64,000 nt of DNA from a virus, in the IMG/VR virus record IMGVR_UViG_3300032087_005453, positions 1 through 64,000 of that record. One strand, 5' to 3'. Both the position numbers and the translations under genes were made by a program. The first letter of the stretch is position 1. Each line of letters begins with the position of its first letter. Below, in pieces: positions 3,746 through 51,765 of the stretch. The notes under the pieces are model-generated. The model had not been told where the DNA came from. It worked only from the letters and a program-made list of their open reading frames with translations, and did not search any database.

Positions 3746-4113
3746 ATAATTTTAGGGACTTAAGGAAAACTATTTTTTGCGATATTGATGGCACGATCTT
3801 TCACCATAAAAAAGATCTACATGCTATGCTAACTGAAAAACCCATCTTACTTCCGGGTGTAATTGAGAGATTTACAGAGTGGAGACTAAAGGATTATTTT
3901 ATCCTTATCACCACAGCCCGTCCAGAAGGCACCAGAAGGGCCACTGAGCAACAACTAAATTCATTTGGTATCTTTTACGACAAACTAATTATGGGGCTTC
4001 CTACGGGCAGCAGAATGGTCGTAAACGATAGAAAACCAGATGGGATGAATACGGCAGAAGCTGTATGCTTAGACAGAAACGCCGGACTATTATCCAGAGA
4101 CGATCTTAGATAA
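3742..4113 (+). CDS. HAD-superfamily phosphatase
   Basis: A 123-residue minimal HAD hydrolase. Motif I is DIDGT at residues 14-18 (Asp nucleophile and general acid), motif II is the T of LITTARPEG, and motif IV is VVNDRKPDG; there is no cap domain. Proteins of this small type dephosphorylate sugar phosphates in surface-glycan pathways. It is convergent with, and overlaps by 24 nt, a leftward kinase/nucleotidyltransferase pair that would act before and after a phosphatase in heptose activation, so a GmhB-like job is plausible. It is shorter than typical GmhB (about 180 residues), so that assignment stays tentative. Confidence 0.82.
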   Translation: MNNFRDLRKTIFCDIDGTIFHHKKDLHAMLTEKPILLPGVIERFTEWRLKDYFILITTARPEGTRRATEQQLNSFGIFYDKLIMGLPTGSRMVVNDRKPDGMNTAEAVCLDRNAGLLSRDDLR

Positions 4114-4560
4114 AATCTCGCTAGAGCTATTAATTTTTGGCAAAGCAAGAAACACCGGAAGTATGTGGAATTTTTCGCATACTTCCTTTTCTTTTGGGTC
4201 TGAAGTAACTCTATCACCAGAATTAAAAAAATAAATTCTGACATCTTCAGACTTGTCTCCAGCCGGAATATTTAATAAATGAGTACCTTGCTCTATATGC
4301 CGCCCAAGTGCCTCTAAATCCGATGCAACATTAATCTCTTTGCTTTGAGATATCTTAGCTGACCAAACGCCTTTGATATTTTTAACAACCTCAAGGCGTT
4401 CATTCTCATCCATAAACTCTTGACTGCCTTTTAACTTTACCTGCTCATCATTATTAACAATGGCAAATAAATGATCAACCATCTTAGCCGACTCTTGAAT
4501 ATACTGAATGTGACCACTATGAATTGGATTTGCGAATAAGCTTACTACCCCAATCTTCAT
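4090..4560 (-). CDS. Cytidylyltransferase-like nucleotidyltransferase
   Basis: A 156-residue Rossmann-like nucleotidyltransferase with the HxGH signature HSGH at residues 14-17 (NPIHSGHIQYI). It resembles the RfaE/HldE C-terminal domain and glycerol-3-phosphate cytidylyltransferase. The ATG at 4560 is preceded by AGGAGAGG, a strong ribosome site, and preferred over an upstream in-frame ATG at 4578. It directly follows the GHMP kinase gene and probably activates the sugar phosphate made there to an NDP-sugar. The usual C-terminal ISSTxxR-like motif reads INSSSEILS. Which nucleotide and sugar it uses cannot be told. Confidence 0.83.
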   Translation of the reverse strand: MKIGVVSLFANPIHSGHIQYIQESAKMVDHLFAIVNNDEQVKLKGSQEFMDENERLEVVKNIKGVWSAKISQSKEINVASDLEALGRHIEQGTHLLNIPAGDKSEDVRIYFFNSGDRVTSDPKEKEVCEKFHILPVFLALPKINSSSEILSKIVSG

Positions 4561-4570
4561 ATTACCTCTC

Positions 4571-5536
4571 CTATGCATGGATTATCTTTGAACCTTCGGG
4601 TGAATAACCACAGTCAATATAACTACCACTAAAATTCTGCACAATATCTTTTTTGCTTTTGCTATCTTTAGCTATTCCAAATATAAATCCAGAACCACCA
4701 CTTCCTAAAAGCTTTCCACCTATCATTCCATGAGCATATAAAGACCTAAATGTGTCTAGGAGTTCTTCACCTGCAATTAAAGGTGAGATTTGTATTTTAG
4801 ATTCCCAAGATTGCCTTAAAAGGATAGCAATGGATTCAATGTCTTCATTACTAAATGCACGAAGTGCGTCATTCGCTAGTTTATGAATATTGATCTTGTT
4901 TTCATCAGACGATCCCGTATCACTAGATGAAGCTATCCTGAACGATCTTCTTTGTTTTCCAGTATAAATAAGAAAAGATCTATTGAAGAACTCTTCGATA
5001 AAATCTTTTGATATTGGCAAAGGTCTAACCCTAAAGTCTCCATCTTTTTTAATCTCGACTGAATTAAATCCTCCATATGCCGCCCAGATTTGATCTTGAA
5101 TCCCACCCGGCTCCTTTAAGTGATTACGTTCAACTTCTATAGCAAACTTTGCCAATTGATATGGTGAATAATTGTATTCCGACTTTAATGCATTGATCAA
5201 TCCCACCATAAAGGCGGAAGAAGATCCAGTTCCAGTTTGAGCGGGAAAATCACTAAAGTAAGACATTTCCCATCTTTTATCCATTTGCTGGAAATACTCA
5301 AGAGCACCTCTAACTCCGTCATGCTGAATTTCTTTGTTGTCGTTTACTTGCTCTATTTTAGAGTAGGATATTTTAGATTTATAACTAAAGATCTCCGGGT
5401 TTTCTCTTAAGGAAAGATAGCAATATTTATCCATTGCAAATCCAATCAGCAACGAACCATGCTGCTCGTAATATGATTTATAATCTGTCGATCCACCAAA
5501 AAGTGAAACTCTAAATGGGGTTTTAGATATAATCAT
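4571..5536 (-). CDS. GHMP-family sugar kinase, heptose-7-phosphate kinase (HddA)-like
   Basis: A 321-residue GHMP kinase. The N-terminal TPFRVSLFGGSTDY matches heptose and related sugar kinases, the ATP loop is GTGSSSA at residues 102-108, and the C-terminal glycine-rich motif is GGKLLGSGGSGFI. The closest known type by eye is D-glycero-alpha-D-manno-heptose-7-phosphate kinase, which phosphorylates C1 before the phosphatase and nucleotidyltransferase steps. Downstream is the nucleotidyltransferase and, convergently, the HAD phosphatase. No GmhA-type isomerase gene is seen in the window, so the phage would rely on host heptose phosphate. The substrate is inferred, not shown. Confidence 0.85.
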   Translation of the reverse strand: MIISKTPFRVSLFGGSTDYKSYYEQHGSLLIGFAMDKYCYLSLRENPEIFSYKSKISYSKIEQVNDNKEIQHDGVRGALEYFQQMDKRWEMSYFSDFPAQTGTGSSSAFMVGLINALKSEYNYSPYQLAKFAIEVERNHLKEPGGIQDQIWAAYGGFNSVEIKKDGDFRVRPLPISKDFIEEFFNRSFLIYTGKQRRSFRIASSSDTGSSDENKINIHKLANDALRAFSNEDIESIAILLRQSWESKIQISPLIAGEELLDTFRSLYAHGMIGGKLLGSGGSGFIFGIAKDSKSKKDIVQNFSGSYIDCGYSPEGSKIIHA

Positions 5537-6023
5537 TAATTACTCCCAAAAAATGTTGTCTACCAGAAGATACTTTACTTCTCCAATCTTGTATTGAATT
5601 AGATCCAATATAATCTGTAATATATTTATAACAAGCAAAATTAACATTAAAGTATTTACATGCCTGTGCTATAGCATATGCCTCCATGTCTGCCAGATCT
5701 GCATTAGAATCTTTTTCCTGTAAAGCAAAGGAATCTCCAGTTGACAATGTTAGTCCTGTGCCATATCTTATGGTTTCATGAAACTCAGGATGACAATCTC
5801 TATTTACAAATGTTCCACACTTGTGTAGTCCAGAAAGGTTTTTGTCAAATGATCCAGCAGTGCCAAGATTGACCACTAGATTTGGATTATAAGTTTTTAT
5901 TAAATCAGAAGCAACTATTGCAGCATTAGTCTTTCCTACACCCGTGAAAAATATTTGATCATCACAATATGATGGTACATCTGGTAATTCTTCTGAAAGT
6001 GCTAATAGAAAGATCTTGTTCAT
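5523..6023 (-). CDS. Nucleoside phosphorylase / MTA-SAH nucleosidase-like protein
   Basis: A 166-residue protein of the PNP/UDP phosphorylase fold, shorter than the usual 230 or so. Seen motifs are GVGKTNAA near residue 29, NLGTAGS, GDSF, and the DMEAYAIA purine/ribose-binding signature followed by YITDYIG. The DMEAYAIA plus YITD pattern fits methylthioadenosine/S-adenosylhomocysteine nucleosidase. It could recycle SAM by-products or cut other nucleosides; nothing in the context decides this. The ATG at 6023 follows the structured element at 6033-6117 by only about 10 nt, so expression may depend on readthrough of that element. Its 3' end overlaps the kinase start. Confidence 0.8.
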   Translation of the reverse strand: MNKIFLLALSEELPDVPSYCDDQIFFTGVGKTNAAIVASDLIKTYNPNLVVNLGTAGSFDKNLSGLHKCGTFVNRDCHPEFHETIRYGTGLTLSTGDSFALQEKDSNADLADMEAYAIAQACKYFNVNFACYKYITDYIGSNSIQDWRSKVSSGRQHFLGVINDYI

Positions 6024-6032
6024 ATGTAGTCC

Positions 6033-6117
6033 AAAAAAATCCCACCCCAAGTCCCGGATGATTCACTAAATTTAGATCTGGCCTAAATGAAAATGTGAAT
6101 CCGGATACTTGGAGTGG
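6033..6117 (-). terminator. Structured terminator-like RNA element, copy 2
   Basis: On the minus strand an 11-bp outer stem (CCACTCCAAGT with ACTTGGGGTGG, one G-U) encloses a 53-nt domain and is followed by TTTTTTT. The inner stem is CCGGAT/ATCCGG. The apical hairpin is TTAGG-CCAGA-TCTAA, with U-A pairs where copy 1 has C-G and G-C. The outer stem sequence is wholly different from the other copies, yet still pairs. It fills the gap between 6137 and the start at 6023. It could terminate the upstream genes or attenuate the nucleosidase gene. Confidence 0.7.
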
Positions 6118-9919: not shown

Positions 9920-10497
9920 TTGGTGTATGCTACATACAATGATTTTGGAATATGAATAACCATAGACTGCTGAAACGTATGAAGTTCAGGAGATTCCTGC
10001 CCAAGAAAACTGACAACCTTTTCTGTATTAAAAAATACACAAGGCATTGGCATTTGTTTTTTAATTGGAGGAGATGAAAGAAATGTTCTTAGTCTACCAC
10101 TATTGTTTATAGAAACATCGTAATCAGAGTATATTGCACCACACTCCTTTTCTTCTTTAAAAAGGGAGAAATTGACATCATCCAATGCATAAGTATTTAA
10201 AATTATGTTTTCCTGCATATTAACCACAGATTGATGAGCTATATATTCGATTATATTTGCCCTAGCCATAGATGTAAACTCAGAAGGATCGTCTGCACTA
10301 TGATCTAACACAGTAATGGTTGCTATATCTTCGTCATTAGCTTGTGCTATATGTTCTCCTACGGTATTCTCATCTGAGAATACAAATAGTTTCACATGAA
10401 CTTCATTGTTTTTAGATCTACACCCATCAAGAATGGTATTTAAATCATCAAGATTAATTCCAGAATTGATAGCATAATTTACAAGTACTTTATTCAT
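9916..10497 (-). CDS. Unknown 193-residue protein, possibly GT-A-like
   Basis: Not firmly recognised. The order of predicted strands and the string GAIYSDYDV (a DxD-like SDYD) resemble the middle of family 2 glycosyltransferases, and VHVKLFVFSDENTVGEHIAQAND fits a Rossmann-like start. It overlaps both neighbours by 4-8 nt inside the glycosyltransferase run. I would treat it as a possible degenerate or accessory glycosyltransferase. Confidence 0.5.
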   Translation of the reverse strand: MNKVLVNYAINSGINLDDLNTILDGCRSKNNEVHVKLFVFSDENTVGEHIAQANDEDIATITVLDHSADDPSEFTSMARANIIEYIAHQSVVNMQENIILNTYALDDVNFSLFKEEKECGAIYSDYDVSINNSGRLRTFLSSPPIKKQMPMPCVFFNTEKVVSFLGQESPELHTFQQSMVIHIPKSLYVAYTK

Positions 10498-13655: not shown

Positions 13656-15206
13656 TCAAATCACAAAAACCTTATCAACAATGAACGAATTACGCTTCTT
13701 ATCCTTAATTTCTCCAGAAAGAAGAAGAGTAGCGTCATTATAGATTATATCCCTGTGCTGCCCGTATACATCAGGAAATATTATAATATTTTCAGATTCT
13801 CCAGAATCATCTTCTACGGACAGAAATGCCATTACATCTCCGTTTTTTGTTTTATGTTCTCTTACATTTTTTACAATCACTGCCACAACACTGCTGCCCA
13901 TTTTACCATCGGCTATTTCTTTACATGTTGTGTTGGCGTGACAGGCGTCAGAGCAACTGTTTAGTTCGGAGTGGTTGATAGAGTAACCAAGAAGTCTTTC
14001 CTCTGTTTTGGCATAAACTACAGAGTTGTCACTAAGGCTTCTGCCGGGATTTTCAAGTCTGGATAAAACGCTTTCTACCTTGACGACTCTGTTTTGGCTG
14101 GAAATAAATCCACCATCTTTTTTGGTTCCGTACGATAGAAGCTTTTTAATGATATCGGCAACGTCACCATCGATATTTAGGTTTTCTTCAACAGCCTGCA
14201 TTTCTTTCTTGGTCAGTTCCATAAAACAATGGTACTCGTGAAGCATTGCTGTTCTGGACTTTCCAAGACCACCAAACGCACCAACCTTGATCAAGTTCTC
14301 AACGGCCCGCTTATTAACATTTCTCAAAACCTTAATTAGCACATTAGACCAGTCAAGTTCATTATCATTAAGCTGACCAAGTTTGTCTTTTAGCTGAAGA
14401 AGGTGAGCCTTGCCTACATTCTTGACGTTACAAATGCCGAAGTGGATGGCTCCCTCTGTCCAAGAAAAATTCTCTTCCAAGACTTTAAAACTGGGACCAT
14501 AAACGTCGATGTTTTCAGCTTTGGCCGCCATGATCAATTGACGCTTTTCCATATCGGGGTCAATTTTGTCGCTGGCACCGCCCAACCAGTTCTTAAAGAA
14601 CCTACTGGGATGATGACAACGTAACCATGCTGACCAGTATGCCATTTCAGCGTACGCTACAGCGTGAGATTTGTTGAAAGAGTAGCGTGCAGACTTTTCA
14701 ATCATGTCGAAAATCTCTACAGCCTTTTCTTCTTCAATGCCATTATCTTTACAACCATCGATATACTTCACACGAACTTTTCTCATCAAGTCAGCTTTTT
14801 TCTTACCAATAGCTTTTCTTAAGTCATCCGCTTCTTGAAGTGAGAACCCTGCCATAACTTGAGCAATTTTCATCGCCTGTTCTTGATATACAATAACTCC
14901 GTAAGTTTCCTTAAGTAGTTCATCAATACTCTCATGAAGACTGGGAATTTCTTCTTTGCCAAACTTACGGTCGACAAAGTGCTGAGTCATCGACTTGCCG
15001 TCAACAATAGCCTTGAGAGTACCCGGACGAATAATACTAATCAATGCCGCTAACTCAAGCATATTCTCTGGCTTTAAAGCTTTTGCCCAAGTTTTACCAA
15101 GATGTCCTTCAATCTGAAAAACACCTTTGACTCGACCTTCACCGATCATCTTCCAGACTTCTGGATCTTCTTTGTCAACACTTGTGATATCAATTTCCAA
15201 ATGCAT
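13656..15206 (-). CDS. dnaE-C: DNA polymerase III alpha subunit, C-terminal half (split dnaE)
   Basis: 516 residues matching DnaE from just after the palm domain onward: VKGVFQIEGHLGKT, ALISIIRPGT, the fingers signature TYGVIVYQEQAMKIAQVMAGFSLQEADDLRKAIGKKK, SARYSFNKSHAVAYAEMAYWSAW, a helix-hairpin-helix-like LIKVGAFGGLGKS and a C-terminal OB fold. None of the catalytic Asp residues is here; all are in the half encoded at 15876-17741. The halves sum to 1137 residues, about the E. coli DnaE length, so nothing large is missing. The ATG overlaps the exonuclease gene by 17 nt. The half should assemble with the N-terminal half to replicate phage DNA. Confidence 0.92.
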   Translation of the reverse strand: MHLEIDITSVDKEDPEVWKMIGEGRVKGVFQIEGHLGKTWAKALKPENMLELAALISIIRPGTLKAIVDGKSMTQHFVDRKFGKEEIPSLHESIDELLKETYGVIVYQEQAMKIAQVMAGFSLQEADDLRKAIGKKKADLMRKVRVKYIDGCKDNGIEEEKAVEIFDMIEKSARYSFNKSHAVAYAEMAYWSAWLRCHHPSRFFKNWLGGASDKIDPDMEKRQLIMAAKAENIDVYGPSFKVLEENFSWTEGAIHFGICNVKNVGKAHLLQLKDKLGQLNDNELDWSNVLIKVLRNVNKRAVENLIKVGAFGGLGKSRTAMLHEYHCFMELTKKEMQAVEENLNIDGDVADIIKKLLSYGTKKDGGFISSQNRVVKVESVLSRLENPGRSLSDNSVVYAKTEERLLGYSINHSELNSCSDACHANTTCKEIADGKMGSSVVAVIVKNVREHKTKNGDVMAFLSVEDDSGESENIIIFPDVYGQHRDIIYNDATLLLSGEIKDKKRNSFIVDKVFVI

Positions 15207-15873
15207 TCTTGAAATTCTTTCTGCTTGCTGTAGTTCTCAACATTCTCATAGTTCTACAAAACAACTCAGCGGTCATAATAACGTCTGACATAGCATCATG
15301 TGCGGTGCCTTCTGAATATCCCATATAACCTCTAATAAGATTATCGGCAGACAGAGAGTTTACATCCTTGTTATTCTCGAATAATGCAAACATAAAGTCA
15401 AGCATATCTATGCTATGAATTCGCTGAAAAAGGTTTTGACCGCCTCTTTTTTCGTCACTAGGACCAAAATTATAAGGTGCTTGACAACAAAGTCTGTCTA
15501 CAATAATTGAGTCAAATCCTTTGATGTTGTATCCTACAGAGATTGGTGCTGACCAGTTGTTGCCCTTAAAGTTGTGCTCGTTAACATACTCTACAAAGTT
15601 TTGCCAAACTCCTTTTGTTGCTGGTGCCTTTTTGAGTATCTCTTTTGTTTTTCCGTGTACGGCAACAGCACCATCTTCTAGTGGATCTAAGTTAAGTTCA
15701 GCACACTTTTTTTCAGTAAAGATAGGTTTCATGAGTGATTGGAACTCAGTTCCTTTTTTGATCTCAAGTTTTCTACCATGCACCACAACTGCCGCTATTT
15801 GTACAGGCTGAGTAGTATGTGGATTAGCACTTGTAGTTTCAAAGTCATAGACAATATAGTCACGGTAATTCAT
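15190..15873 (-). CDS. DnaQ-like 3'-5' proofreading exonuclease
   Basis: A 227-residue DEDDh exonuclease. Exo I is YDFETTSA (D10, E12), Exo II includes GYNIKGFDSIIVD, and Exo III is HDAMSDVIMTAELF. This matches the epsilon subunit of Pol III, which edits mispaired 3' ends. The gene lies between the two halves of the Pol III alpha gene, 2 nt after the first stop and overlapping the second start, so the three subunits would be made together. In PolC-type enzymes the exonuclease is fused inside the polymerase; here it is separate but sits at the split point. Confidence 0.88.
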   Translation of the reverse strand: MNYRDYIVYDFETTSANPHTTQPVQIAAVVVHGRKLEIKKGTEFQSLMKPIFTEKKCAELNLDPLEDGAVAVHGKTKEILKKAPATKGVWQNFVEYVNEHNFKGNNWSAPISVGYNIKGFDSIIVDRLCCQAPYNFGPSDEKRGGQNLFQRIHSIDMLDFMFALFENNKDVNSLSADNLIRGYMGYSEGTAHDAMSDVIMTAELFCRTMRMLRTTASRKNFKNAFGN

Positions 15874-15875
15874 AA

Positions 15876-17741
15876 TTATGCTTCCTGTTGTTCAAAATGG
15901 TTATTTATTTCTCCTACGGTTTTTGATATCTTAGACAAAAGAGATACCCCAAGAATATCGAATTTTACACATCCAATAGACTCAAGATCTCCCATCTCCA
16001 TACCAGCTATTTTCTCGTCACCTCTCGATGCTTTGACCATTGGACAAATTTTCTCAAGATTATGGGACGCAATTACCACCCCAGCGGCATGTTTCCCTTG
16101 TGTTTTAAAGATTCCCTCCATTCTCATAGCTTGCTCAAATACTTTAGCATATTCACCCTGTAGAGTTCCATCTTCGTCAATCCAGCAGTAGTCAATCAAG
16201 GCATTCTTGTCATTTTCTAATGCCCAGCGAATAACAGAAGGCTCATCCATTTCTTCAAGAAGGTCTGAGATAGACGCTTCGTTTGGAATCTTCTTGGTTA
16301 TTTCGTTCATCTGATCAAAAGAACATGATTCATTTACTCTGAGAACTTCCTTAAGGATAGACCGACCTGCCAGTCGACCAAACGTCAACATCTGACAAAC
16401 CTGAGAAGATCCATACTTTTCTCTGAGATAATCAATAACAGCGTCTCTATAGTCTGGTGGAAAGTCTACGTCAATATCAGGAAGCGACACATGATCCGCT
16501 GTATTTCTTCCTTCATTGTAGAATCTTTCGAATAGAAGTCCATACTTGATTGGATCAAGAAGAGTAATTCCAGTCAGGTAGCAAACCAAAGATCCACCAC
16601 CCGATCCACGGGCGGGACCGATCAGACAACCTTGATTCCTAAAGTGATTGACATAATCCTGTACGATAAGAAAATAGCCAGCAAGATCTGCTTTGCTGAT
16701 AACCTCAAGCTCACGCAAAACACGGTCTTTGTAGGCATCATAAAGCTTGGGATCAATGTTTGTCATGATCAACCTCTTCCACCCCTGTCGACAAAGTTCC
16801 TTTAGGTATTCATCTTCAGAGCTACCATCCGGAGTTTCAAAGGTAGGAAGTTTTGGTTTAGAAAGAATCTCCAAACCATCACACAAAGACACAACTCTGT
16901 TTAGATTCTCAATACATTGCTGTCCGTAGTTTTCCAGAAGAAAATACTTAGGCTTGATGTAATGATTGCTACTTCGGATAAACTTGAGAGACTCCAGATC
17001 TTGCTTCTCGTTGATCTTCTGATCCAGTTTTTTCATGGTGGTCTTCAGCTTTGTACAAACCAAAACCCTATGATCAACAGCATCTTTTCTTTCAGGATAA
17101 TAGGATGATGTGTCTGGCAAAGTAAACAACTCTTGAGGATCAATCTCATGAATGATATCGCACATCAGTTTGGTGACAGGAAATGAATCATTATCCACAT
17201 TGTTGATTTCAAGGAAATAATTCTCGCCAAAGTAATCCTCCATCTTTTTCACATGATCTTTAGCAACTTGCTCGTGATTGTCATCCAGACACTCAAAAAG
17301 ACCTTCATTGTCCAGTGATTCAAAAATACACTGACTATCCGGAAAAACACGAGAAAACAAGGCACTACCAACATAACCGTCTATGCAGATAAAGTTAGAA
17401 GGAGTGATTACCTCCATCAGCTTTTCCAGAGAAATCTTGGCACCCTTATCGTAGTTTTCTGGGTCATTAGATACAGATACCACAGTCAGAAGTTCCATCC
17501 AAGCGTCATTGTTCCTACACAACAGCGTCACTCTTGAGCCATTATCAAGAACAACTTCACAACCAATAATGGGCTTGATGTCTTGATTTTTACAGGCTTG
17601 AATAAAATTCACACAGCCGCTGACAGTGGAAAGATCTGTCAAAGAGGCATGATCATATCCAAGTTTTTTACAGGTTGAAACAATCTGCTTGGATCTAGAG
17701 GTTGATACCAAAAGAGAATAATGACTGTGATTTCTTAGCAT
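15876..17741 (-). CDS. dnaE-N: DNA polymerase III alpha subunit, N-terminal half with PHP and palm
   Basis: 621 residues. An N-terminal PHP domain (NHSHYSLL, LGYDHASLTD) is followed by the Pol III thumb/palm with the nucleotide-site signature GPARGSGGGSLVCYLTGI. Catalytic Asp motif PDIDVDF lies at 421-427 and the third Asp at VKFDILG near the C-terminus. It ends about 20 residues after that motif, where the fingers domain should begin; the missing part is encoded at 13656-15206. No intein motifs are at the break, unlike the cyanobacterial split DnaE, whose break lies further downstream at the FNKSH site. The PHP metal residues are only partly conserved, so PHP nuclease activity is doubtful. 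Confidence 0.92.
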   Translation of the reverse strand: MLRNHSHYSLLVSTSRSKQIVSTCKKLGYDHASLTDLSTVSGCVNFIQACKNQDIKPIIGCEVVLDNGSRVTLLCRNNDAWMELLTVVSVSNDPENYDKGAKISLEKLMEVITPSNFICIDGYVGSALFSRVFPDSQCIFESLDNEGLFECLDDNHEQVAKDHVKKMEDYFGENYFLEINNVDNDSFPVTKLMCDIIHEIDPQELFTLPDTSSYYPERKDAVDHRVLVCTKLKTTMKKLDQKINEKQDLESLKFIRSSNHYIKPKYFLLENYGQQCIENLNRVVSLCDGLEILSKPKLPTFETPDGSSEDEYLKELCRQGWKRLIMTNIDPKLYDAYKDRVLRELEVISKADLAGYFLIVQDYVNHFRNQGCLIGPARGSGGGSLVCYLTGITLLDPIKYGLLFERFYNEGRNTADHVSLPDIDVDFPPDYRDAVIDYLREKYGSSQVCQMLTFGRLAGRSILKEVLRVNESCSFDQMNEITKKIPNEASISDLLEEMDEPSVIRWALENDKNALIDYCWIDEDGTLQGEYAKVFEQAMRMEGIFKTQGKHAAGVVIASHNLEKICPMVKASRGDEKIAGMEMGDLESIGCVKFDILGVSLLSKISKTVGEINNHFEQQEA

Positions 17742-43612: not shown

Positions 43613-43963
43613 ATGATGACAGAAAAGGCAAAGGTCGTAGAAAAACGATGGGGTCGAGAAATCTGGTTTGCTAATAATGAGGAGAAAGATTATTGTGGTA
43701 AGATTCTCGAAATCAAACCAGACAGCCGGTTAAGTCTACACTTCCACATGATTAAAGAAGAACATCTTTTCAACTTGGAAGGAGATTGTCAGGTCACTTA
43801 TCTAACAAGAAGTGGAGACACAATAAAATTTGACCTTCAGGTTGGTTGTTCTTTTCACATTAGACCTGGACTTGTTCATCGATTTTCTACAAAGAATGGT
43901 TGTAGACTTTTAGAGGCTAGTACTTTTCATCGTGATAGTGATAGTTATAGAGTGCAACGATGA
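43613..43963 (+). CDS. Cupin (mannose-6-phosphate isomerase type II-like)
   Basis: A 116-residue single-domain cupin. The metal and barrel motifs are SLHFHMIKEEHLFNLEGDCQVTYL (cupin motif 1) and GCSFHIRPGLVHRFSTKNG (motif 2). The start EKRWGREIWFANN is the type seen in the C-terminal domain of mannose-6-phosphate isomerase/GDP-mannose pyrophosphorylase enzymes. It probably isomerises or epimerises a sugar phosphate. It is the first gene of the sugar operon. The second in-frame ATG at 43616 is an equal start choice. A short copy of its C-terminal end follows at 44010. Confidence 0.85.
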   Translation: MMTEKAKVVEKRWGREIWFANNEEKDYCGKILEIKPDSRLSLHFHMIKEEHLFNLEGDCQVTYLTRSGDTIKFDLQVGCSFHIRPGLVHRFSTKNGCRLLEASTFHRDSDSYRVQR

Positions 43964-44007
43964 GCCTATCAATAGAAGATATTTCGTGTTGTGCAAGGAC
44001 CGATTGA

Positions 44008-44057
44008 AGATAGTACATTTCATCTTGACTCAGATAGTTATAGGGTATTTATATGAC
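44008..44057 (+). pseudogene. Remnant of a duplicated cupin 3' end
   Basis: Reading from 44008, one frame gives STFHLDSDSYRVFI then TGA, matching the cupin C-terminus STFHRDSDSYRVQR (43917-43963). Both copies end with a stop. Nothing upstream in the gap at 43964-44007 continues the cupin frame, so only the tail survives. It is a vestige of tandem duplication or a recombination scar. Confidence 0.55.
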
Positions 44058-44745
44058 ATGCTTTAGTATAGTTTTGGTTTCTAGATCCAGACCGTTAATG
44101 ATGTTAGACTTATACAAGTCAATAAAAAATACATCAAAACTTGATAACGAAATACTTATAGGTTTAGACAACGATGATGATCACTTAAATGATTATATAA
44201 AAATATTCTCAGAAATTGAAAATGTACAGTTGTTCATAGAGGAAAGAAACTCAAATCTGCACACTAGGATAAATCAATTATTACCTCATGTTAAAGGTAA
44301 ATATATATTTGTATTAAATGACGATTGTAAATTGATTGAAAATTCTTGGGATAAATACTCTATAGAATTGTTAGATTCTTTTGGTGATATAGTATATGGT
44401 AAAACATACGACAATAGTATTGATAGAGTTAGCAATACCTATGCCGCATTTCCTATTGTTTCAAAGACGGCTGCTAAAAAACTAGGCTTCATAATGGATG
44501 AAACTTTTGGCAATCATGGCTCGGACGTTATGACCTATAGAGTTTACGAGGGTGCAAATAAAATCGTTGATTTGCCCGGAGTTAGGATTGATCACGTTCT
44601 ACACAATTCAGTAGATGCTTTGCAAGATAGGAAAAGAGATAAAACAGCAGTCGATATGATTAATAGAACTTTTTCTGATGATAAATTTTCAGTTGATAGT
44701 CTTTTTAGTATTGATACCTCAAAAAAATCGGAGATGCTTAAATGA
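44053..44745 (+). CDS. Family 2-like glycosyltransferase
   Basis: A 230-residue GT-A protein. FSIVLVSRSRP is the first strand, EILIGLDNDDDH a second, and the donor-site DxD is in YIFVLNDDCKL. A later FGNHGSDVMTYRVYEGA resembles the acceptor-side GxGxxD region of similar enzymes. It overlaps the next gene by 4 nt (ATGA). Together with the next two genes it makes a block of three GT2-type enzymes. Confidence 0.8.
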   Translation: MTCFSIVLVSRSRPLMMLDLYKSIKNTSKLDNEILIGLDNDDDHLNDYIKIFSEIENVQLFIEERNSNLHTRINQLLPHVKGKYIFVLNDDCKLIENSWDKYSIELLDSFGDIVYGKTYDNSIDRVSNTYAAFPIVSKTAAKKLGFIMDETFGNHGSDVMTYRVYEGANKIVDLPGVRIDHVLHNSVDALQDRKRDKTAVDMINRTFSDDKFSVDSLFSIDTSKKSEMLK

Positions 44746-45677
44746 AATTATTAACAGTATATAATACTTGTGGTATAAAAGGTGTTGAAAATGTATATTA
44801 TTATATTGCTGCATTGGAAAGTATTTTTAAACAAGAAGGTGTTGATCATGATATTGTGGTTTCTGCGTGTTTAAATAAAATTTCTACATTACAAAAAATA
44901 AAAAACAAATTTAAAGACATAAGAATAAATTTAATAAATGATGCAGTTCCTGTTAATGTGAGCTTTAATCATACTTGCGAAATGTTTAATGATTCACATG
45001 ATGCATTTTTGTATATTGATTCCGGCATAATTATGCCTGATAAATTCACTATAAAAAAAATGATTGACAGGCTTGAATCTGGACCATATTCTATGGTTTG
45101 TTCTAATGTTAATAATGATGTCGGCCAGGCTGTTGAAGATACACCCAATTACGATAAAGGTGATGGTATACTGACTGATGATGTTGGTTCGTTTGTGTCA
45201 GTAGGTTCGTCTTTAAACTTGCATTGTCAAATATTTTCAAAGCAGCTAAAAGAATTTTATAATAGAATTATTCCCGACATCTTTGCTGGACATTGTACTG
45301 AGTCAGTACTATCTTTCCTTTGTGCGGCATTAAAGACAAGATGGGCTTTTTGTGATGACGTTTTAGTTTTTCATGCGATAAATATGGATGGGCAAAGTTC
45401 CGGTTTCGACCCTTTAAAATGGATGTATGAAAAAAAGAGACAAACCTATGATCATCCATTTGTTATAGAGAGCTATTTGGATAGATTCACAAATCAATAT
45501 GCAAAAAGTATAGGGTTAGGATTTGAGGAGTGTCGTAATGTTGTTATGCACGACAAGGAACAATTTGACGACAATTCATTTTGCATAAATGATGATCTTA
45601 AATCTTATATAAAACAAAATCTATTCCTCAAGAATAGTGAATTTAATTATTCCAACATAAGGAGTACAGTGATATGA
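44742..45677 (+). CDS. Glycosyltransferase-like protein (GT-A fold)
   Basis: A 311-residue protein. KLLTVYNTCGIKGVENVYYYIAALESIF is the usual GT2 opening, and NDSHDAFLYIDSGIIMPDKF holds a DSG-type metal site where a DxD is usual. The rest (GPYSMVCSNVNNDVGQ, LKTRWAFCDDVLVFHAINMDG) fits an acceptor region. The DxD is not canonical, so activity is less certain than for the flanking GT2 genes. It overlaps both neighbours by 4 nt. Confidence 0.7.
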   Translation: MKLLTVYNTCGIKGVENVYYYIAALESIFKQEGVDHDIVVSACLNKISTLQKIKNKFKDIRINLINDAVPVNVSFNHTCEMFNDSHDAFLYIDSGIIMPDKFTIKKMIDRLESGPYSMVCSNVNNDVGQAVEDTPNYDKGDGILTDDVGSFVSVGSSLNLHCQIFSKQLKEFYNRIIPDIFAGHCTESVLSFLCAALKTRWAFCDDVLVFHAINMDGQSSGFDPLKWMYEKKRQTYDHPFVIESYLDRFTNQYAKSIGLGFEECRNVVMHDKEQFDDNSFCINDDLKSYIKQNLFLKNSEFNYSNIRSTVI

Positions 45678-46513
45678 CGCAGACTTGGCTTCGAAACGAA
45701 CATGTACGCTATATGCGTATTACAGATAAAAATAAATGGTGTTGGGATTATAAGATTTCAATAGTTATACCAACGAGAGGAAGGGTTGAGCTTCTTAAAA
45801 ATTGCTTACTTTCTATTTTAGATAAATCTTTTAAATCTAATAGGTTATTTGAGATTATACTGGTTATAGATTATGATGATGATGAAACCTTAAAGTTTGT
45901 TAAACAATTTTCAGATATTTTTAAATTTAACTGCCCAAAGACAAAGATGCAGCTAAACAGTCTTTCGGTTATACTAACTGAGAGATCTGAATATATGCAG
46001 CGTGATTATAACAATGTTGGTGCCAATGCCGCAAAAGGCGATTTGATATTCATTTTAAATGATGATTGTGTTATAACAACAACTAATTGGGATAAAAAAC
46101 TTATAGATTATTATATTGAAAACAAACCTGATGATGATATTATGTTGATAGCATGTAGTGATAATACACATGACGGTGAAAGTTTAGATATCAAAGGTCA
46201 AGTAAGAGATAATGAGACTCATGGAGCATGTTTTCCAATTTTTACAAAGACTTTTTGCGATATATTTAACGGCGTGTTTCCTCCAGAATTCAAGATGTGG
46301 TGTGTTGATACGGCCATGAATTCATTATTTAAATCATTTGACAGAAAGTATTCTTTTAAAGAATTACATATAGACCATATTAGTTATCATACAAAAACTA
46401 GAGAGCCGGATTCTATCAACTATCATGTAGCAAATGTCAGTAACTCTGCGGTGCCACCAGCTAACATGCAGTATTATTTAAATACTGTGTCTAAATATAT
46501 AAAAAATGATTAA
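45674..46513 (+). CDS. Family 2 glycosyltransferase
   Basis: A 279-residue GT-A enzyme with ISIVIPTRGRVELLKNCLLSIL (canonical family 2 opening), YNNVGANAAKGDLIFILNDDCVI (metal site NDD) and a later PDSINYHVANVS. It starts in an ATGA overlap with the previous gene, so it is coupled to it. The TPP enzyme genes follow after 11 nt. Confidence 0.85.
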   Translation: MTQTWLRNEHVRYMRITDKNKWCWDYKISIVIPTRGRVELLKNCLLSILDKSFKSNRLFEIILVIDYDDDETLKFVKQFSDIFKFNCPKTKMQLNSLSVILTERSEYMQRDYNNVGANAAKGDLIFILNDDCVITTTNWDKKLIDYYIENKPDDDIMLIACSDNTHDGESLDIKGQVRDNETHGACFPIFTKTFCDIFNGVFPPEFKMWCVDTAMNSLFKSFDRKYSFKELHIDHISYHTKTREPDSINYHVANVSNSAVPPANMQYYLNTVSKYIKND

Positions 46514-46524
46514 GGATCTTTAAA

Positions 46525-47151
46525 ATGCATAAACAAGAAATAGTCAATTTTGAAAAAGAAATACAAAATCTATATGAGGATGGAGCTATTCGTGGACCTG
46601 TCCATCTTAGAGATGGAAACGAACAGCAGTTAATTGATATTTTCAAAGATGTTAAAAATGGTGACTATGTCTTTAGCACATGGGCTAATCATATTCATGC
46701 ATTATTGAAAGGCGTGCCTCCAGAAGCTATCAAGAATAGAATTCTAGAAAGTCAGTCTATGGCTATGAATTTTCCACAACATAGATTTTTCACATCAGCG
46801 ATTGTTGCTGGAATACCGCCGATTGCTATAGGTACTGCACTATCATTAAAGAGAAGTGGATCAGAAGATAAGGTGTGGTGTTTTGTTGGAGATATGGCTT
46901 TTAGGACTGGTATATGTCATGAATCAATTATGTATGCTATTTCTCACGACCTACCAATTACTTTTGTAGTAGAAGACAATGGAAAATCTGTCGGGACTCC
47001 TACACAAGATAGTTGGGGTGAAGTAAAATTGGACAAACTGCTTGAATTTTACAATAGCTTGATTGGTAAAGAGTCTAGTGCCGATATAATATACTACCAG
47101 TACCTTCTTTCCTATCCGCATTCTGGAACTGGAACTTTCGTGTCTTTTTGA
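46525..47151 (+). CDS. TPP-dependent enzyme, E1-alpha-like subunit (minimal)
   Basis: A 208-residue thiamine diphosphate-binding subunit of the 2-oxoacid dehydrogenase E1-alpha type. Seen motifs are DGAIRGPVHLRDGNEQ, FSTWANHIHALLKGV, and the TPP motif GDMAFRTG (122-129) ending with N152 in EDNGKSVGTPT. Usual E1-alpha proteins are 320-360 residues, so this is a shortened form. Paired with the next gene (pyrimidine-binding half), it should make a two-subunit TPP enzyme. Some antibiotic sugar clusters use such a pair to add a two-carbon unit to a ketosugar. That function is inference. Confidence 0.85.
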   Translation: MHKQEIVNFEKEIQNLYEDGAIRGPVHLRDGNEQQLIDIFKDVKNGDYVFSTWANHIHALLKGVPPEAIKNRILESQSMAMNFPQHRFFTSAIVAGIPPIAIGTALSLKRSGSEDKVWCFVGDMAFRTGICHESIMYAISHDLPITFVVEDNGKSVGTPTQDSWGEVKLDKLLEFYNSLIGKESSADIIYYQYLLSYPHSGTGTFVSF

Positions 47152-47159
47152 GGGTTGCG

Positions 47160-47672
47160 ATGAATTATTTAGAAGAAGTAGATAAAGGTATGAAACTGCT
47201 TGCCAAGAGTGAAACCACAATTATTGGCCAAGCCGTTAGCTATAAGGGACATGCAATCACAAGGCAGGCCGCATTTTGGCCTGAAGATAAACGTATTGAA
47301 CTACCTGTGGCAGAAGAGATGCAAACAGGTATGGCTTTAGGTATAGCTATTGCAGGTGATATTCCCGTGTCAATATATCCAAGAATGAACTTTCTAATTT
47401 GTGCCGCTAATCAATTACTGAACCATTTAGATAAATGGGAATTGATGGGTGGTGGAATTCCACATGTTATACTTAAGGCTGTTGTTGGTAGCGAATATCC
47501 ATTAGATCCTGGACATCAACATAAAGCCAATTGGTCTTCTGAGATTAGTAATATGTGTGATAAGGTCAAAGTTCACAATCTTATTTATGGACATCAAGTG
47601 TTTGATGCCTATAATGATGCAATCAACAAAAAAGGAGTGCATCTAATTATAGAGCATGGTGATTTGTATTAG
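47160..47672 (+). CDS. TPP-dependent enzyme, E1-beta-like subunit (pyrimidine domain only)
   Basis: A 170-residue protein matching only the pyrimidine-binding half of E1-beta/transketolase: GHAITRQAAFWPEDKRIELPVAEEMQTGMALGIAIAG contains the catalytic-Glu region (PVAEE), then PVSIYPRMNFLICAANQLLNHL. The C-terminal transketolase-C domain of normal E1-beta (325 residues) is absent. ATG 47160 is chosen over 47148 because GAGGG lies just upstream. It completes the active site with the alpha-like subunit encoded upstream. No E2 or E3 genes are present, so it is not a dehydrogenase complex. Confidence 0.85.
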   Translation: MNYLEEVDKGMKLLAKSETTIIGQAVSYKGHAITRQAAFWPEDKRIELPVAEEMQTGMALGIAIAGDIPVSIYPRMNFLICAANQLLNHLDKWELMGGGIPHVILKAVVGSEYPLDPGHQHKANWSSEISNMCDKVKVHNLIYGHQVFDAYNDAINKKGVHLIIEHGDLY

Positions 47673-47682
47673 AGGTTGCTAG

Positions 47683-48183
47683 ATGACAATAAAAATAATA
47701 ACAGAAACCAAGCATATCGATAATAGAGGTTCTCTTTACACTACATTTACAGATTACGATTATGATATTCAGTTTGTTCAGGATAAAATCTCTCAATCTA
47801 GATATGGAGCAATTCGTGGATTTCATGGAGATAATAAAACCTACAAACTCGTCACCTGTATCTACGGAGTAATGCAGTTTGTGACTTTTGACATAGAAAC
47901 AGAAAAAACCACCCGTTATTTACTAGATGCTAATAATAAAGAAGTTGATTCTATTCTTGTTGAACCGGGACAGTTAAATGCTCATCAATGTCTGTCAGAT
48001 CAATGTATAATGAGCTATAAATGGAGTGAGTATTATACTTCTCCAGAAGATCAATGGACTGTAAAATACGATGACCCAACTATAGATGCTGACTGGTGTG
48101 ATACCAACTATGTGATTTTGTCTCATAGAGATTCTACGGCACAAGACTTTTTGTCACAAAAAGAAGAAGGTGTATTCTCATGA
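47683..48183 (+). CDS. RmlC-like sugar epimerase (cupin)
   Basis: A 166-residue cupin with the dTDP-4-dehydrorhamnose 3,5-epimerase pattern: HIDNRGSLYTTF start, SRYGAIRGFHGDNKTYKLVTCIYGVMQFVTFDIE (core strands with catalytic-region His) and GQLNAHQCLSDQCIMSYKWSEYYTS. RmlC enzymes invert C3 and C5 of NDP-4-keto-6-deoxysugars. Some catalytic residues of RmlC (the H-D dyad) are not clearly present, so it might only epimerise at one carbon. It lies between the TPP enzyme and the radical SAM enzyme, with an ATGA overlap to the latter. Confidence 0.82.
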   Translation: MTIKIITETKHIDNRGSLYTTFTDYDYDIQFVQDKISQSRYGAIRGFHGDNKTYKLVTCIYGVMQFVTFDIETEKTTRYLLDANNKEVDSILVEPGQLNAHQCLSDQCIMSYKWSEYYTSPEDQWTVKYDDPTIDADWCDTNYVILSHRDSTAQDFLSQKEEGVFS

Positions 48184-49661
48184 ATTTACTGGTTGTATGT
48201 CCAAGTTCAGCCGGATTATACCAAGATCTTCAAACTGACTTTTCAGCTAAAGAAACAAATATATGGGCGGGACTTTTAGCAAATGCTGTTAGAAAAGAAC
48301 ATGATGTAGTCATCTATGATATGGAGATCGAAAGACCTTCTGAGTCTAAATTCATTGATGACGTGAATCAAATAGATCCTGATCTTGTATTATTTGTTGT
48401 TACAGGTCAAAACCCTAATGCATCTACGGCAGCAATGGATGGTGCTACAAAAGCATCATCTGTGTTATCGGGTCAATTTAAGATAGCATTTGTTGGACCG
48501 CATGTTAATGCTTTGCCTGTTGAGACCCTCCAAAAGCATCCGGAAATAGATATTGTCTTTACTAACGAAGGTGTTTATGCTCTTAAGAATCTTTTAAAAA
48601 CAGATTTGAAAGACATCACTGGAGTTAATGGAATAGCCTATAGAGATAATGGAGAAATAAAGCTCAATTCACCAGAAAAAATTGTGCCTCAAAATCTATT
48701 AGAACAAGATCTTCCGGGCGTAGCATACGACCTCATGCCAAAGCTTGATAACTATAGAACATCGCATTGGCACGCCAACTATCAAGATGATAGATCTCCA
48801 TTTGCCAGCATCTATACTAGCCTCGGATGTAGTTTTAAATGTAACTTCTGTATGATCAATATTATCAACAGGACAGAAAATGGTAGTGATAAATATGCTG
48901 GAATGTTTAACAAGTTTAGGTATTGGTCTCCAGAATTCACCATAAAGCAACTGGACTACTTAGCGGATAAAGGTGTCAAGCACATAAAAATAGCTGATGA
49001 ATTATTCCTAAATAATCCAAACAAACATGCTATGCCATTGTGTGATTTAATTATTGATCGTGGTTACAAATTTAATATATGGGCTTATACTCGCGTCAAT
49101 ACAGTCCGTGAGCACCATCTTGATAAACTTAAAAAAGCTGGAGTTAATTGGCTTGCAATAGGTATCGAGAACGTCCGTCAAAATGTTAGACAGGAAATAG
49201 AAAAAGGTGTCTTTAAAGATGCAGATATTGGTAGTGTTGTAAAGATGATCGAATCTGCTGGTATACATGTAATTCAAAACTATATTGTAGGACTTCCCGG
49301 TGAATCTGCTGATGATGCTCGTGCCAATCTGGAATTTGCTTTAGATTTAAAATGTGCCGCATATAACGTCTATCCATCTATGGCATTACCGGGATCACAA
49401 TTGTACACAGATGCTTTTGCTAACAATCAAGAGTTACCAAAGGAGTATTCAGAGTTTGGATTTCTTAGCTATGATTGTTTTCCTCTTAGTAATGGAATAA
49501 TGACCCGCGAAGAAATGTTAAAAATTCGTGATGAAAATTGGATGCTGTATCATAAAAATGACCAATTCTTGCTTGCGACTCAAAATCGTTTTGGTAAAAT
49601 GGCTGTTGACAATATAAGAAATATGGCATCCGTAAATATTAAAAGAAAACTATTGGATTAA
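48180..49661 (+). CDS. Cobalamin-binding radical SAM enzyme
   Basis: A 493-residue protein with two domains. An N-terminal Rossmann-type B12-binding domain (NQIDPDLVLFVVTGQNPNAS, KIAFVGPHVNALPVETLQKHPEIDIVFTNEG) is followed by a radical SAM barrel with the CX3CX2C cluster at C217, C221, C224 (CSFKCNFC). The downstream IGIENVRQNVRQEIEKG and YIVGLPGES strings are typical of this class. Such enzymes often methylate or rearrange unactivated carbons; here the substrate is probably a nucleotide sugar. The gene is coupled to the RmlC-like gene upstream and followed by the PLP enzyme. Confidence 0.9.
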   Translation: MNLLVVCPSSAGLYQDLQTDFSAKETNIWAGLLANAVRKEHDVVIYDMEIERPSESKFIDDVNQIDPDLVLFVVTGQNPNASTAAMDGATKASSVLSGQFKIAFVGPHVNALPVETLQKHPEIDIVFTNEGVYALKNLLKTDLKDITGVNGIAYRDNGEIKLNSPEKIVPQNLLEQDLPGVAYDLMPKLDNYRTSHWHANYQDDRSPFASIYTSLGCSFKCNFCMINIINRTENGSDKYAGMFNKFRYWSPEFTIKQLDYLADKGVKHIKIADELFLNNPNKHAMPLCDLIIDRGYKFNIWAYTRVNTVREHHLDKLKKAGVNWLAIGIENVRQNVRQEIEKGVFKDADIGSVVKMIESAGIHVIQNYIVGLPGESADDARANLEFALDLKCAAYNVYPSMALPGSQLYTDAFANNQELPKEYSEFGFLSYDCFPLSNGIMTREEMLKIRDENWMLYHKNDQFLLATQNRFGKMAVDNIRNMASVNIKRKLLD

Positions 49662-49675
49662 ATAAGGACTATGTA

Positions 49676-50812
49676 ATGGACAGAATAGAATTTGGTGAAT
49701 TGAGAATCGGACAAAATGCTCGAAGAAATCTTCTTCATGTGTGTGATACTAATTGGGCTAGTGGTGGTCCAAAAGTAAAAGACCTTGAAGACAGATGGAG
49801 TAAACTATTTGGCTATAAAAGAAGTGTTGCCATGAGTTCTGGAACTGATGGTGTGACAAATGCCTGTTTGGCACTATATGACCTTAAGGGTGCAACTAGA
49901 GGTGTCAGCGAGGTTATTGTTCCAGCATGTTCATTTATAGCGACATCAAATGGTGTTCGTGCCGCTGGTCTTATTCCAAGATTTGTTGATGTAAAGAAAG
50001 AAACACTAAATATTGATGAATCTAAAATTGAAGAGGCAATTAATGACAACACAGTAGCAATCATGCCCGTTCACACTATGGGTCGCATGGCCGACATGCA
50101 CACTATTTGTAACCTTGGTAAGCGATATGACCTGACAATTATTGAAGATGCTTGTGAAGCTCATGGTGCCGTATTCAACAATGGAAATGTTTCGGAATAT
50201 GTTGGTAACTGGGGTGATATGTCCATCTATAGTTATTATATTGCACACTTGGTTTGCTGTGGTGAAGGAGGTATGGTATCTACTAATGACGACAATATTG
50301 CGGATGTTTTGTCCTCAACAAGATCTCACGGCAGACCTTTCAATTCGATTTACTTTGACCACCAACGAACTGGTTTAAATTCTAAAATGAATGACTTGGA
50401 GGCATCAATTGGCCTTGAAGCCGTTAGTGTCTTTTGGGATACTTTTTGGACAAGACACAAGTTTATGAAGACGATGCGTGCGGCAGCAGAAGGATTTGAG
50501 GATGTTGCTTGGTTTTCTGAAGAAGATGATGAGTGTATAAATTGCCCGCATGGATTCAGTATTACTTGTAAAGAAGAAGGTAAGATAGATAAGGTTAAAG
50601 AAACCTTTGACAAATATAATATTCACCACAAAAGGAACTTTGGATGTATTCCAACACAGCATCGTGCTTTTGAAGATATGGGGTATTATCTTGGTGATTT
50701 CCCAAATGCTGAGTGGATTGGAGATAATGGGGTGCATATTGGATGCCATCAGTATCTAACTGAAGAAAATCTTGATAGAATTTGCACCGCGATTAAGGAA
50801 GGATTGTCATGA
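49676..50812 (+). CDS. DegT/DnrJ-family PLP enzyme with His replacing Lys (sugar 3-dehydratase-like)
   Basis: A 378-residue fold-type I PLP protein: SSGTDGVTNACLAL, EVIVPACSFIATSNGV, IIEDACEAHGA (D158 region) and the pyridoxal-site loop SIYSYYIAHLVCCGEGGM. In aminotransferases the loop has Lys at the position of H191; here it is His. This His-for-Lys swap is the known mark of the sugar 3-dehydratases ColD and RfbH/E1, which remove the C3 hydroxyl of 4-ketosugars. It therefore probably makes a 3-deoxy-4-ketosugar, not an aminosugar. The product would suit a TPP enzyme adding a branch. It overlaps the epimerase gene by 4 nt. Confidence 0.87.
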   Translation: MDRIEFGELRIGQNARRNLLHVCDTNWASGGPKVKDLEDRWSKLFGYKRSVAMSSGTDGVTNACLALYDLKGATRGVSEVIVPACSFIATSNGVRAAGLIPRFVDVKKETLNIDESKIEEAINDNTVAIMPVHTMGRMADMHTICNLGKRYDLTIIEDACEAHGAVFNNGNVSEYVGNWGDMSIYSYYIAHLVCCGEGGMVSTNDDNIADVLSSTRSHGRPFNSIYFDHQRTGLNSKMNDLEASIGLEAVSVFWDTFWTRHKFMKTMRAAAEGFEDVAWFSEEDDECINCPHGFSITCKEEGKIDKVKETFDKYNIHHKRNFGCIPTQHRAFEDMGYYLGDFPNAEWIGDNGVHIGCHQYLTEENLDRICTAIKEGLS

Positions 50813-51765
50813 ATATTTTAATAACTGGTGCGGGAGGGTATATTGGAGCTAAGCTAACACAGTTCCTTGCCTGGAAGCAACACAATGTCGTTTGTTTTGA
50901 CAACTTTTTCTTTAATCACAAAACCTTGGTTGAGGATGTATTTGATAGACCAAACTGTAAATTATATGAAGAGGATGTTACTGAATGGTCTGACAATCTA
51001 AAAAGAGAAATCAAAAATGCAGATGTAATATTTCCACTAGCTGCACTTGTTGGAGCACCTTTGTGTGACAAGTTTCCAGAAGAGACTTTGGATTTAAACC
51101 AAAATTGGTTCAACAAACTGCTTGACTATGTCGATAATCAAGTTATCATCTATCCAAACACTAATTCTGGATACGGAAGCACAGGAACTGACATCTGTAC
51201 AGAAGAAACACCATGCAACCCCCTTTCTTTATATGGAAAAACTAAAGGAGAGGCAGAGCGGATTCTTCTGGAAGATTATGACAATGCTGTTTGTTTTAGA
51301 CTGGCGACGGTTTATGGTCGTAGTCATAGACAACGGATGGACCTGCTCGTGAACAACCTAGTGTATTCTTCAATGATCAATAGAAGATTAGAAGTATTTG
51401 ATGGGCATTTTCGGAGGAACTATATTCATGTAGATGATATTGTTTCTGCTTTTACTCATGCTCTAGATAATTTTGAATCTATGCGTGGAGAAGTTTACAA
51501 TCTTGGTAATGATTCTGTTAACATGTCTAAGCTTGATCTTGTAAAAAAGATATGCCATGAAACACGGGCTGTATGGGTTGAGGTTCAAGATAAAACTGAT
51601 CCAGATAAAAGAGATTACATTGTTAGTAGTCAAAAACTATACGACACGGGTTTTAAACCAAAATACAATTTAGACTATGGAATTAAACAAATGATGATGG
51701 TTTGTTCTGAAAATTGGAAGAACTTTGCCGATGTCGATTACATGAGTATGTGTAAAAATTATTAA
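50809..51765 (+). CDS. NAD-dependent sugar epimerase/dehydratase (extended SDR)
   Basis: A 318-residue extended short-chain dehydrogenase. The NAD motif is ITGAGGYIGAKL, the catalytic triad region is NSGYG...LYGKTKGEAE (Y-x3-K), and VDDIVSAFTHALDN and NLGNDS complete the pattern. It most likely reduces or epimerises the C4 keto group of the NDP-sugar made by the upstream enzymes. It starts in an ATGA overlap with the dehydratase gene. Confidence 0.88.
   Translation: MNILITGAGGYIGAKLTQFLAWKQHNVVCFDNFFFNHKTLVEDVFDRPNCKLYEEDVTEWSDNLKREIKNADVIFPLAALVGAPLCDKFPEETLDLNQNWFNKLLDYVDNQVIIYPNTNSGYGSTGTDICTEETPCNPLSLYGKTKGEAERILLEDYDNAVCFRLATVYGRSHRQRMDLLVNNLVYSSMINRRLEVFDGHFRRNYIHVDDIVSAFTHALDNFESMRGEVYNLGNDSVNMSKLDLVKKICHETRAVWVEVQDKTDPDKRDYIVSSQKLYDTGFKPKYNLDYGIKQMMMVCSENWKNFADVDYMSMCKNY

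Follow-up and report, generated by a model that had tools for sequence, protein, structure and literature searches.

The operon at positions 43613-51765 of a 64-kb window (the whole stretch analysed, which is the first 64 kb of the 107,436-base virus record IMGVR_UViG_3300032087_005453) is most likely part of a widespread module, found mainly in viruses, that would make a C-branched, 3-deoxy sugar derived from a heptose. We incline towards the view that this operon, together with a kinase and a nucleotidyltransferase encoded at 4-6 kb, converts a heptose into a higher sugar that is nucleotide-linked, C-branched and 3-deoxygenated, a proposal built on what is observed, namely gene families, active-site residues, the position of one enzyme in a tree and recurrent gene linkage. 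The source record bears phage genes for a terminase, a tape measure protein, a split DNA polymerase and a ribonucleotide reductase. The operon comprises ten open reading frames (ORFs), all rightward, and the ten gene calls of a preliminary description of this DNA hold, ORFs and domain families being in agreement (Table 1). Nine of these genes (44053-51765) are spaced by a 4-bp overlap or a gap of 10-14 bp, with a purine-rich, Shine-Dalgarno-like stretch before most of them, and the near-identical contig L005 (L numbers are our handles for loci) has the same arrangement. A promoter scan gave 55 matches vs 41 in shuffled sequence.

Two consecutive genes of the operon encode a small thiamine pyrophosphate (TPP) enzyme whose alpha and beta chains, of 208 aa and about 170 aa (174 from the TTG at 47148), are about half as long as full E1 chains. 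The family profiles of the viral proteins match human pyruvate dehydrogenase (PDH) E1 alpha at 5.5e-19 and E1 beta at 1.3e-15, DXS and transketolase being much poorer matches; the Transket_pyr match of beta, under the Pfam cut-off as a single sequence, is clear as a family profile. Furthermore, when an AlphaFold model of beta (predicted local distance difference test, pLDDT, 92.9) is superposed on E1 beta, it fits the PYR half at a template modelling (TM) score of 0.84-0.85. Alpha H56, beta E56 and beta H125 (the beta residues numbered from the TTG) are invariant in the family and align with E1 residues that we take to be the catalytic His, Glu and His. For the beta chain, the ATG start chosen in the preliminary description (47160) is more likely than the listed TTG. 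The same description had seen in this pair the cofactor-binding halves of a TPP enzyme with no E2/E3 genes, and had named a likeness to sulfopyruvate decarboxylase as something that would speak against it. Indeed, both chains are E1-like and not sulfopyruvate-decarboxylase-like, and searches of the source record for E2 (PF00198) and for a lipoyl domain (PF00364) found neither, so that the partner expected of the E1 of a PDH complex is missing from this record.

E1-type TPP pairs without E2 are known to put C2 branches on ketosugars (PMC12247030, PMC4425429). Those of the alpha-KADH2 type transfer the C2 branch from pyruvate onto C3 or C4 (PMC12247030); KbDH accepts ketones in vitro, sugar analogues among them (PMC12247030), and inactivation of pau11 leads to loss of paulomycins (PMC4425429). 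AviB1/AviB2, Pau11/Pau12 and KbDH-alpha/beta resemble the phage pair as E1-type pairs outside a dehydrogenase complex and within a deoxysugar gene set, with His/Glu/His at the catalytic positions, and their use of a pyruvate donor and a ketosugar acceptor is the chemistry that we propose for the phage enzyme. The alpha-KADH2 enzymes are, however, full-length chains with C-terminal domains (Pau11 325 aa, Pau12 345 aa), encoded in antibiotic clusters and acting on hexoses and pentoses, whereas the phage pair is of 208 + ~170 aa and its sugar is apparently a heptose. The logic of yersiniose A synthesis by YerE is also shared, with a 4-keto sugar, 3-deoxygenation and TPP-dependent transfer of activated acetaldehyde to C4, but YerE is a single-chain, decarboxylase-family flavoprotein working on a CDP-hexose, unlike the two short E1-type chains of the phage, which has no CDP-glucose 4,6-dehydratase. 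A CDP-glucose (yersiniose-like) route was rejected, this dehydratase being found in 0 of 51 records.

The DegT-fold protein of the operon carries a His (H191) where aminotransferases have a Lys, as the preliminary description had pointed out in assigning it to the C3-dehydratases, and H191 indeed aligns with the Lys of perosamine synthase. Queried on its own, the protein reaches 144 bits with Lys-type PDB entries vs 104-119 bits with ColD/RfbH; since this comparison slightly favours the Lys type, the choice between Lys and His types was put to a maximum-likelihood tree of 41 rows, whose midpoint root serves for drawing only. A branch with support 100/99 separates the 32 His-type rows from the 9 Lys-type rows, and the tree places the phage protein with ColD and RfbH, apart from the Lys-type aminotransferases. 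Given H191 and this position on the His side, the protein is best read as a C3-dehydratase of the pyridoxal phosphate (PLP)-dependent class, in line with the earlier assignment; identity as a Lys-type aminotransferase was rejected on the same residue and tree. While it shares the DegT fold, the His for Lys replacement and the side of the tree with the ColD and RfbH/E1 3-dehydratases, it belongs to a separate, so far virus-only His-type lineage, the third beside those of ColD and RfbH/E1. ColD acts on GDP-4-keto-6-deoxymannose, and the Campylobacter jejuni C3-dehydratase is PLP-dependent, with pyridoxamine phosphate (PMP) regenerated with glutamate (PMC10440746).

The remaining enzymes point to the sugar on which these two would act. 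The preliminary description had cast the short-chain dehydrogenase/reductase (SDR) as the final reductase; it is instead nearest to a heptose C4-dehydrogenase, which makes the 4-ketone. Its best solved relative, 6vo6 (E 8.9e-71, the next match having 71 bits), is one that we take to be Cj1427, its table label being putative sugar-nucleotide epimerase/dehydratase. Y142 and K146 of the SDR are kept and the Asp-Glu pair of dehydratases is absent, as judged from conserved columns of 88 sequences. Cj1427 oxidises GDP-heptose at C4 (PMC10680097). For the RmlC-like protein the epimerase class assigned earlier stands, but the nearest relatives are GDP-4-keto-heptose epimerases, the best solved ones (8dak/8dcl) reaching 83 bits, whereas the top dTDP-rhamnose RmlC has 50. 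The radical S-adenosylmethionine (SAM) protein combines a B12-binding domain with a CxxxCxxC motif (C217, C221, C224) whose cysteines are kept in 53 sequences, as in B12 radical SAM C-methyltransferases, and has HpnJ and TIGR04295 among its top NCBIfam matches; a C-methyltransferase is thus its probable identity.

A second, leftward set of genes at 4-6 kb may complete the pathway. The GHMP kinase has HddA as its top NCBIfam match (123 bits, under the 600-bit equivalog cut-off), and its viral relatives adjoin TPP and His-type DegT genes. The relatives of the neighbouring nucleotidyltransferase adjoin the GHMP kinase, and we infer for it a role in sugar-1-phosphate activation. Membership of both in the same module, although they lie outside 43613-51765, is supported. 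The nucleosidase encoded beside them may clear 5'-deoxyadenosine or S-adenosylhomocysteine (SAH) from the radical SAM step. Because the SDR resembles a heptose C4-dehydrogenase, the RmlC-like protein resembles GDP-4-keto-heptose epimerases and the module includes this kinase and nucleotidyltransferase, the sequence comparisons make a heptose more likely than a 6-deoxyhexose. The branched deoxy nucleotide sugar suggested earlier remains the most economical product, with its origin shifted from 6-deoxyhexose towards heptose.

The recurrence of these genes together is observed well beyond this phage. One scan of viral contigs gave 516 confirmed TPP-alpha relatives among its candidates, the best 80 being retained, and a scan of 84,980 genomes, made with a different pattern, at least 8; in further genomes from the phyla of two seeds, TPP-alpha occurred in 1/398 and 0/379, so that the mini-TPP family looks virus-enriched and rare in sampled bacteria. 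In the TPP-sampled loci, 51 of the 52 DegT proteins near TPP pairs are of the His type (query counted), and the distance between the TPP-beta stop and the start of the DegT gene is often 31 bp or less. The radical SAM gene associates with DegT and SDR in the TPP-sampled loci, and among the split ones the nucleosidase occurs only alongside the radical SAM gene (11/11; p 1e-8, an optimistic value for a reason given below). In the loci sampled by the GHMP kinase, 55 of 55 nearby DegT proteins are of the His type and TPP is present in about half of the loci; in this sample TPP and DegT are linked once the loci are dereplicated (counts 25, 3, 11 and 16; odds ratio 12; p 2e-4, optimistic likewise). 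The GHMP sampling took the place of a GDP-mannose 4,6-dehydratase (GMD)-sampled viral set intended as control for His and Lys types, whose flanks contained no DegT within 10 kb. Whole GMD records hold both His-type and Lys-type DegT, and Lys-type DegT is present in other viral records. The single Lys-type DegT in the TPP-sampled loci is that of L012:3832-5031, on a contig of a gammaproteobacterial metagenome-assembled genome. Cluster 7 near TPP pairs, taken by its size for a glucose-1-phosphate cytidylyltransferase, is actually an HldE-type kinase.

The enzyme set is common to many viruses and at least two bacteria. In L276 (bacterium G303, a chromosome of 69% GC), about 8.3 kb hold HddA-like, TPP-alpha, TPP-beta, His-type DegT, GmhA-like, Cj1427-like and radical SAM genes, and in the Albibeggiatoa genome (L011/L275) a TPP pair, radical SAM, HddA, His-type DegT, HddC and Cj1427-like genes stand together. 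A second architecture of the same TPP family occurs in cyanophages, Prochlorococcus single-cell contigs and candidate-phyla bacteria, in which a fused alpha-beta chain of about 400 aa lies beside a zinc alcohol dehydrogenase and an HldE-type kinase (L002 and L003, the loci of P-TIM68 and S-SM2, and L013-L018). The 'transketolase central region-containing protein' of cyanophages S-SM2 and P-TIM68 (phrog_34187) is of this family and differs from the split phage pair in being fused and in pairing with the zinc alcohol dehydrogenase, without an adjoining DegT.

Taken together, these genes would fit the following route, in which we infer every substrate, the order of steps and the final target. The HddA-like kinase and the nucleotidyltransferase would activate a heptose, with isomerase and phosphatase presumably supplied by the host; the Cj1427-like SDR would oxidise C4 to a ketone, next to which the RmlC-like enzyme would epimerise, and the His-type DegT protein with PMP would take off the C3 hydroxyl. 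The mini-TPP pair would then decarboxylate pyruvate (or another 2-oxo acid) and transfer the C2 unit to the C4 ketone of its proposed acceptor, GDP-3-deoxy-4-keto-heptose, so that C4 becomes a tertiary alcohol carrying an acetyl group as its branch. Methylation of a carbon would fall to the B12 radical SAM enzyme, the nucleosidase removing the by-product, and the glycosyltransferases would pass the sugar to a host surface glycan or a virion protein. In the C. jejuni GDP-heptose pathway (HddA, Cj1427, the C3-dehydratase of HS:5 and Cj1430-type epimerases), the kinase, C4-dehydrogenase, C3(/C5)-epimerase and C3-dehydratase classes are the same, but descriptions of C. jejuni include neither TPP branching nor a radical SAM step. 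The C4-dehydrogenase (HS:2) and the C3-dehydratase (HS:5), which come from different serotypes, were combined in vitro to give GDP-3-deoxy-4-keto-heptose (PMC10680097).

Several points weigh against this route. Carboligation by the viral mini-TPP enzyme is a proposed activity; the pair lacks the C-terminal halves that known ketosugar ligases have, and its motif is GDM, not GDG. The loci are related and the TPP and GHMP samples overlap, which makes the p values optimistic. A zinc alcohol dehydrogenase replaces DegT in 8 of 9 fused-TPP loci, and the TPP acceptor may vary between architectures; this suggests a ketone-making partner as the common theme. The kinase/nucleotidyltransferase pair and the TPP pair lie in separate operons in this phage, neither GmhA (SIS_2) nor a PF00483-type guanylyltransferase was found on searching the source record, its own nucleotidyltransferase being of the PF01467 type, and a GMD-like gene in the same record, 45 kb from the operon, makes a hexose route possible. 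In such a GDP-hexose version, GMD would give GDP-4-keto-6-deoxymannose, the DegT protein would remove O3 like ColD, which works on this very compound (PMC10440746), the TPP pair would add the C2 unit to yield a GDP-linked yersiniose-like sugar, and the SDR would be an epimerase or reductase. The GMD relative is clear in this record (374 bits with TIGR01472) and in those of L019 and L075, and a GDP-fucose-synthase-like gene directly precedes TPP-alpha in L019 and L182. We nevertheless regard the hexose version as unlikely, since GMD lies 45 kb from the operon, a strong GMD is found only in this record and in 2 of 50 related ones, GMD-sampled viral loci have no nearby TPP pair, the SDR and RmlC-like proteins are nearer to heptose enzymes, and an HddA-like kinase would be superfluous.

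It appears rather doubtful that the TPP pair acts early on a sugar phosphate in the manner of transketolase or DXS, building a ketose phosphate for the kinase and nucleotidyltransferase steps with no branch on a nucleoside diphosphate (NDP)-ketosugar. Heptose-type kinases, isomerases and nucleotidyltransferases do recur near TPP pairs, the fused cyanophage forms included, and DXS and split transketolase are matched too, more weakly, by profile and by fold; yet E1 is clearly nearer than either, the host has a transketolase already, and the gene most tightly associated with the split pair is that of the His-type DegT protein, whose reaction requires a 4-ketone. That the TPP pair is a decarboxylase of 2-oxo or imino acids working by itself, in an operon making a simple 3-deoxy, methylated sugar without C2 branch, seems highly improbable: the solved TPP decarboxylase AzcB/AzcC is likewise made of small halves (about 168 aa), but it is the poorer match (TM 0.65, against 0.85 for E1 beta), the E1-type His/Glu/His is kept, and linkage to ketosugar-forming genes is strong.

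The preliminary description knew of no such complete set in a phage. The complete set was not found in the open-access literature, and neither was any report of the TPP family in viruses in the literature searched, but the module itself is common in viral contigs. We therefore put forward, tentatively, that viruses carry and help spread a dedicated pathway in which a heptose is oxidised at C4, 3-deoxygenated, given its C2 branch by a minimal E1-type TPP ligase and C-methylated by a B12 radical SAM enzyme, the outcome being a branched sugar of nine or ten carbons. To our knowledge, this class of sugar is not known from any glycan, and 3-deoxy-4-keto-heptose has so far been made only by mixing enzymes in vitro. 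The branched heptose route offers a testable function for a TPP family common in viral contigs and annotated as 'unknown function' (phrog_34187) or, in cyanophages, as 'transketolase central region'. If the route is true, ketone carboligation, which biocatalysis is looking for, would have a minimal scaffold in this family, and 3-deoxy-4-keto-heptose would have a place in nature. Phages would then be spending resources on a rare higher sugar of their own making, which bears on host-surface remodelling or virion decoration. Bradyrhizose came to mind as a product class and is not claimed; this bicyclic O-antigen sugar had no known genes in 2016 (PMC4743980).

Table 1. Genes of the operon, of the second gene set and of the GMD-like locus (window positions unless indicated).
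Feature	Position	Strand	Basis
Small cupin (mannose-6-phosphate isomerase C-terminal/cupin type), operon start	43613..43963	+	PF01050 27 bits, PF07385 26 bits
Family 2 glycosyltransferase	44053..44745	+	PF00535 40 bits
Probable GT-A/GT2-type glycosyltransferase	44742..45677	+	structure model, without Pfam match
Family 2 glycosyltransferase	45674..46513	+	PF00535 51 bits
Mini TPP enzyme alpha, PP-domain half of E1 alpha	46525..47151	+	PF00676 62 bits; H56, GDM-type TPP motif, N152
Mini TPP enzyme beta, PYR-domain half of E1 beta, no C-terminal domain	47160..47672	+	family profile; E56, H125
RmlC-fold epimerase, nearest GDP-4-keto-heptose C3 or C3/C5 epimerases	47683..48183	+	PF00908 84 bits
B12-binding radical SAM enzyme, probable C-methyltransferase	48180..49661	+	PF04055 60 bits, PF02310 37 bits
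His-type (H191) DegT-fold sugar 3-dehydratase, best reading	49676..50812	+	PF01041 256 bits; H191; tree
SDR nearest Cj1427-type NDP-heptose C4-dehydrogenase	50809..51765	+	6vo6 242 bits
Cytidylyltransferase-like nucleotidyltransferase	4090..4578	-	PF01467 40 bits; weak rfaE domain II match
GHMP kinase, HddA-like (heptose-7-phosphate 1-kinase type)	4571..5536	-	PF00288/PF08544
Methylthioadenosine (MTA)/SAH-type nucleosidase	5523..6050	-	PF01048 55 bits, PRK05634 81 bits
GMD-like gene	97044-98183 of record (L007:13044-14183)	-	TIGR01472 374 bits, under 415 cut-off

Of the three glycosyltransferases described earlier, two are borne out by Pfam GT2 matches, while the third (44742-45677) is recognized only by a moderate-confidence fold model: a Pfam search gave zero matches, the model (pLDDT 69) matches GT2 structures with E 2e-7 and TM 0.46, and its homologues adjoin TPP pairs in viral loci. 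Cupins like the one at the start of the operon occur in 11 of 91 TPP-sampled loci. Seven leftward ORFs of 157-275 aa without Pfam match (6493-11212), flanked by the kinase/nucleosidase genes on one side and by a 547-aa glycosyltransferase (11200-12843) on the other, are probably further glycan genes. Cluster 5 (e.g. L055:4125-4532), a 134-aa viral family with no NCBIfam match, is found in 42 of 91 TPP-sampled loci at a median of 1 kb before TPP-alpha and is absent from GHMP-sampled loci; it could be no more than a phage core gene. In L004 (3959-5182, 6388-8606 and 8654-9880), from a 735-kb huge-phage record, the TPP genes are split with beta before alpha and a radical SAM-like gene between them, two methyltransferase-like genes lying on either side. 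Some 1.5 kb separate the terminase gene from the GMD-like gene, which had 101 viral relatives in one scan. The DNA polymerase is encoded leftward at 13656-17741 in two ORFs, corresponding to consecutive parts of phrog_405 and separated by a small ORF.

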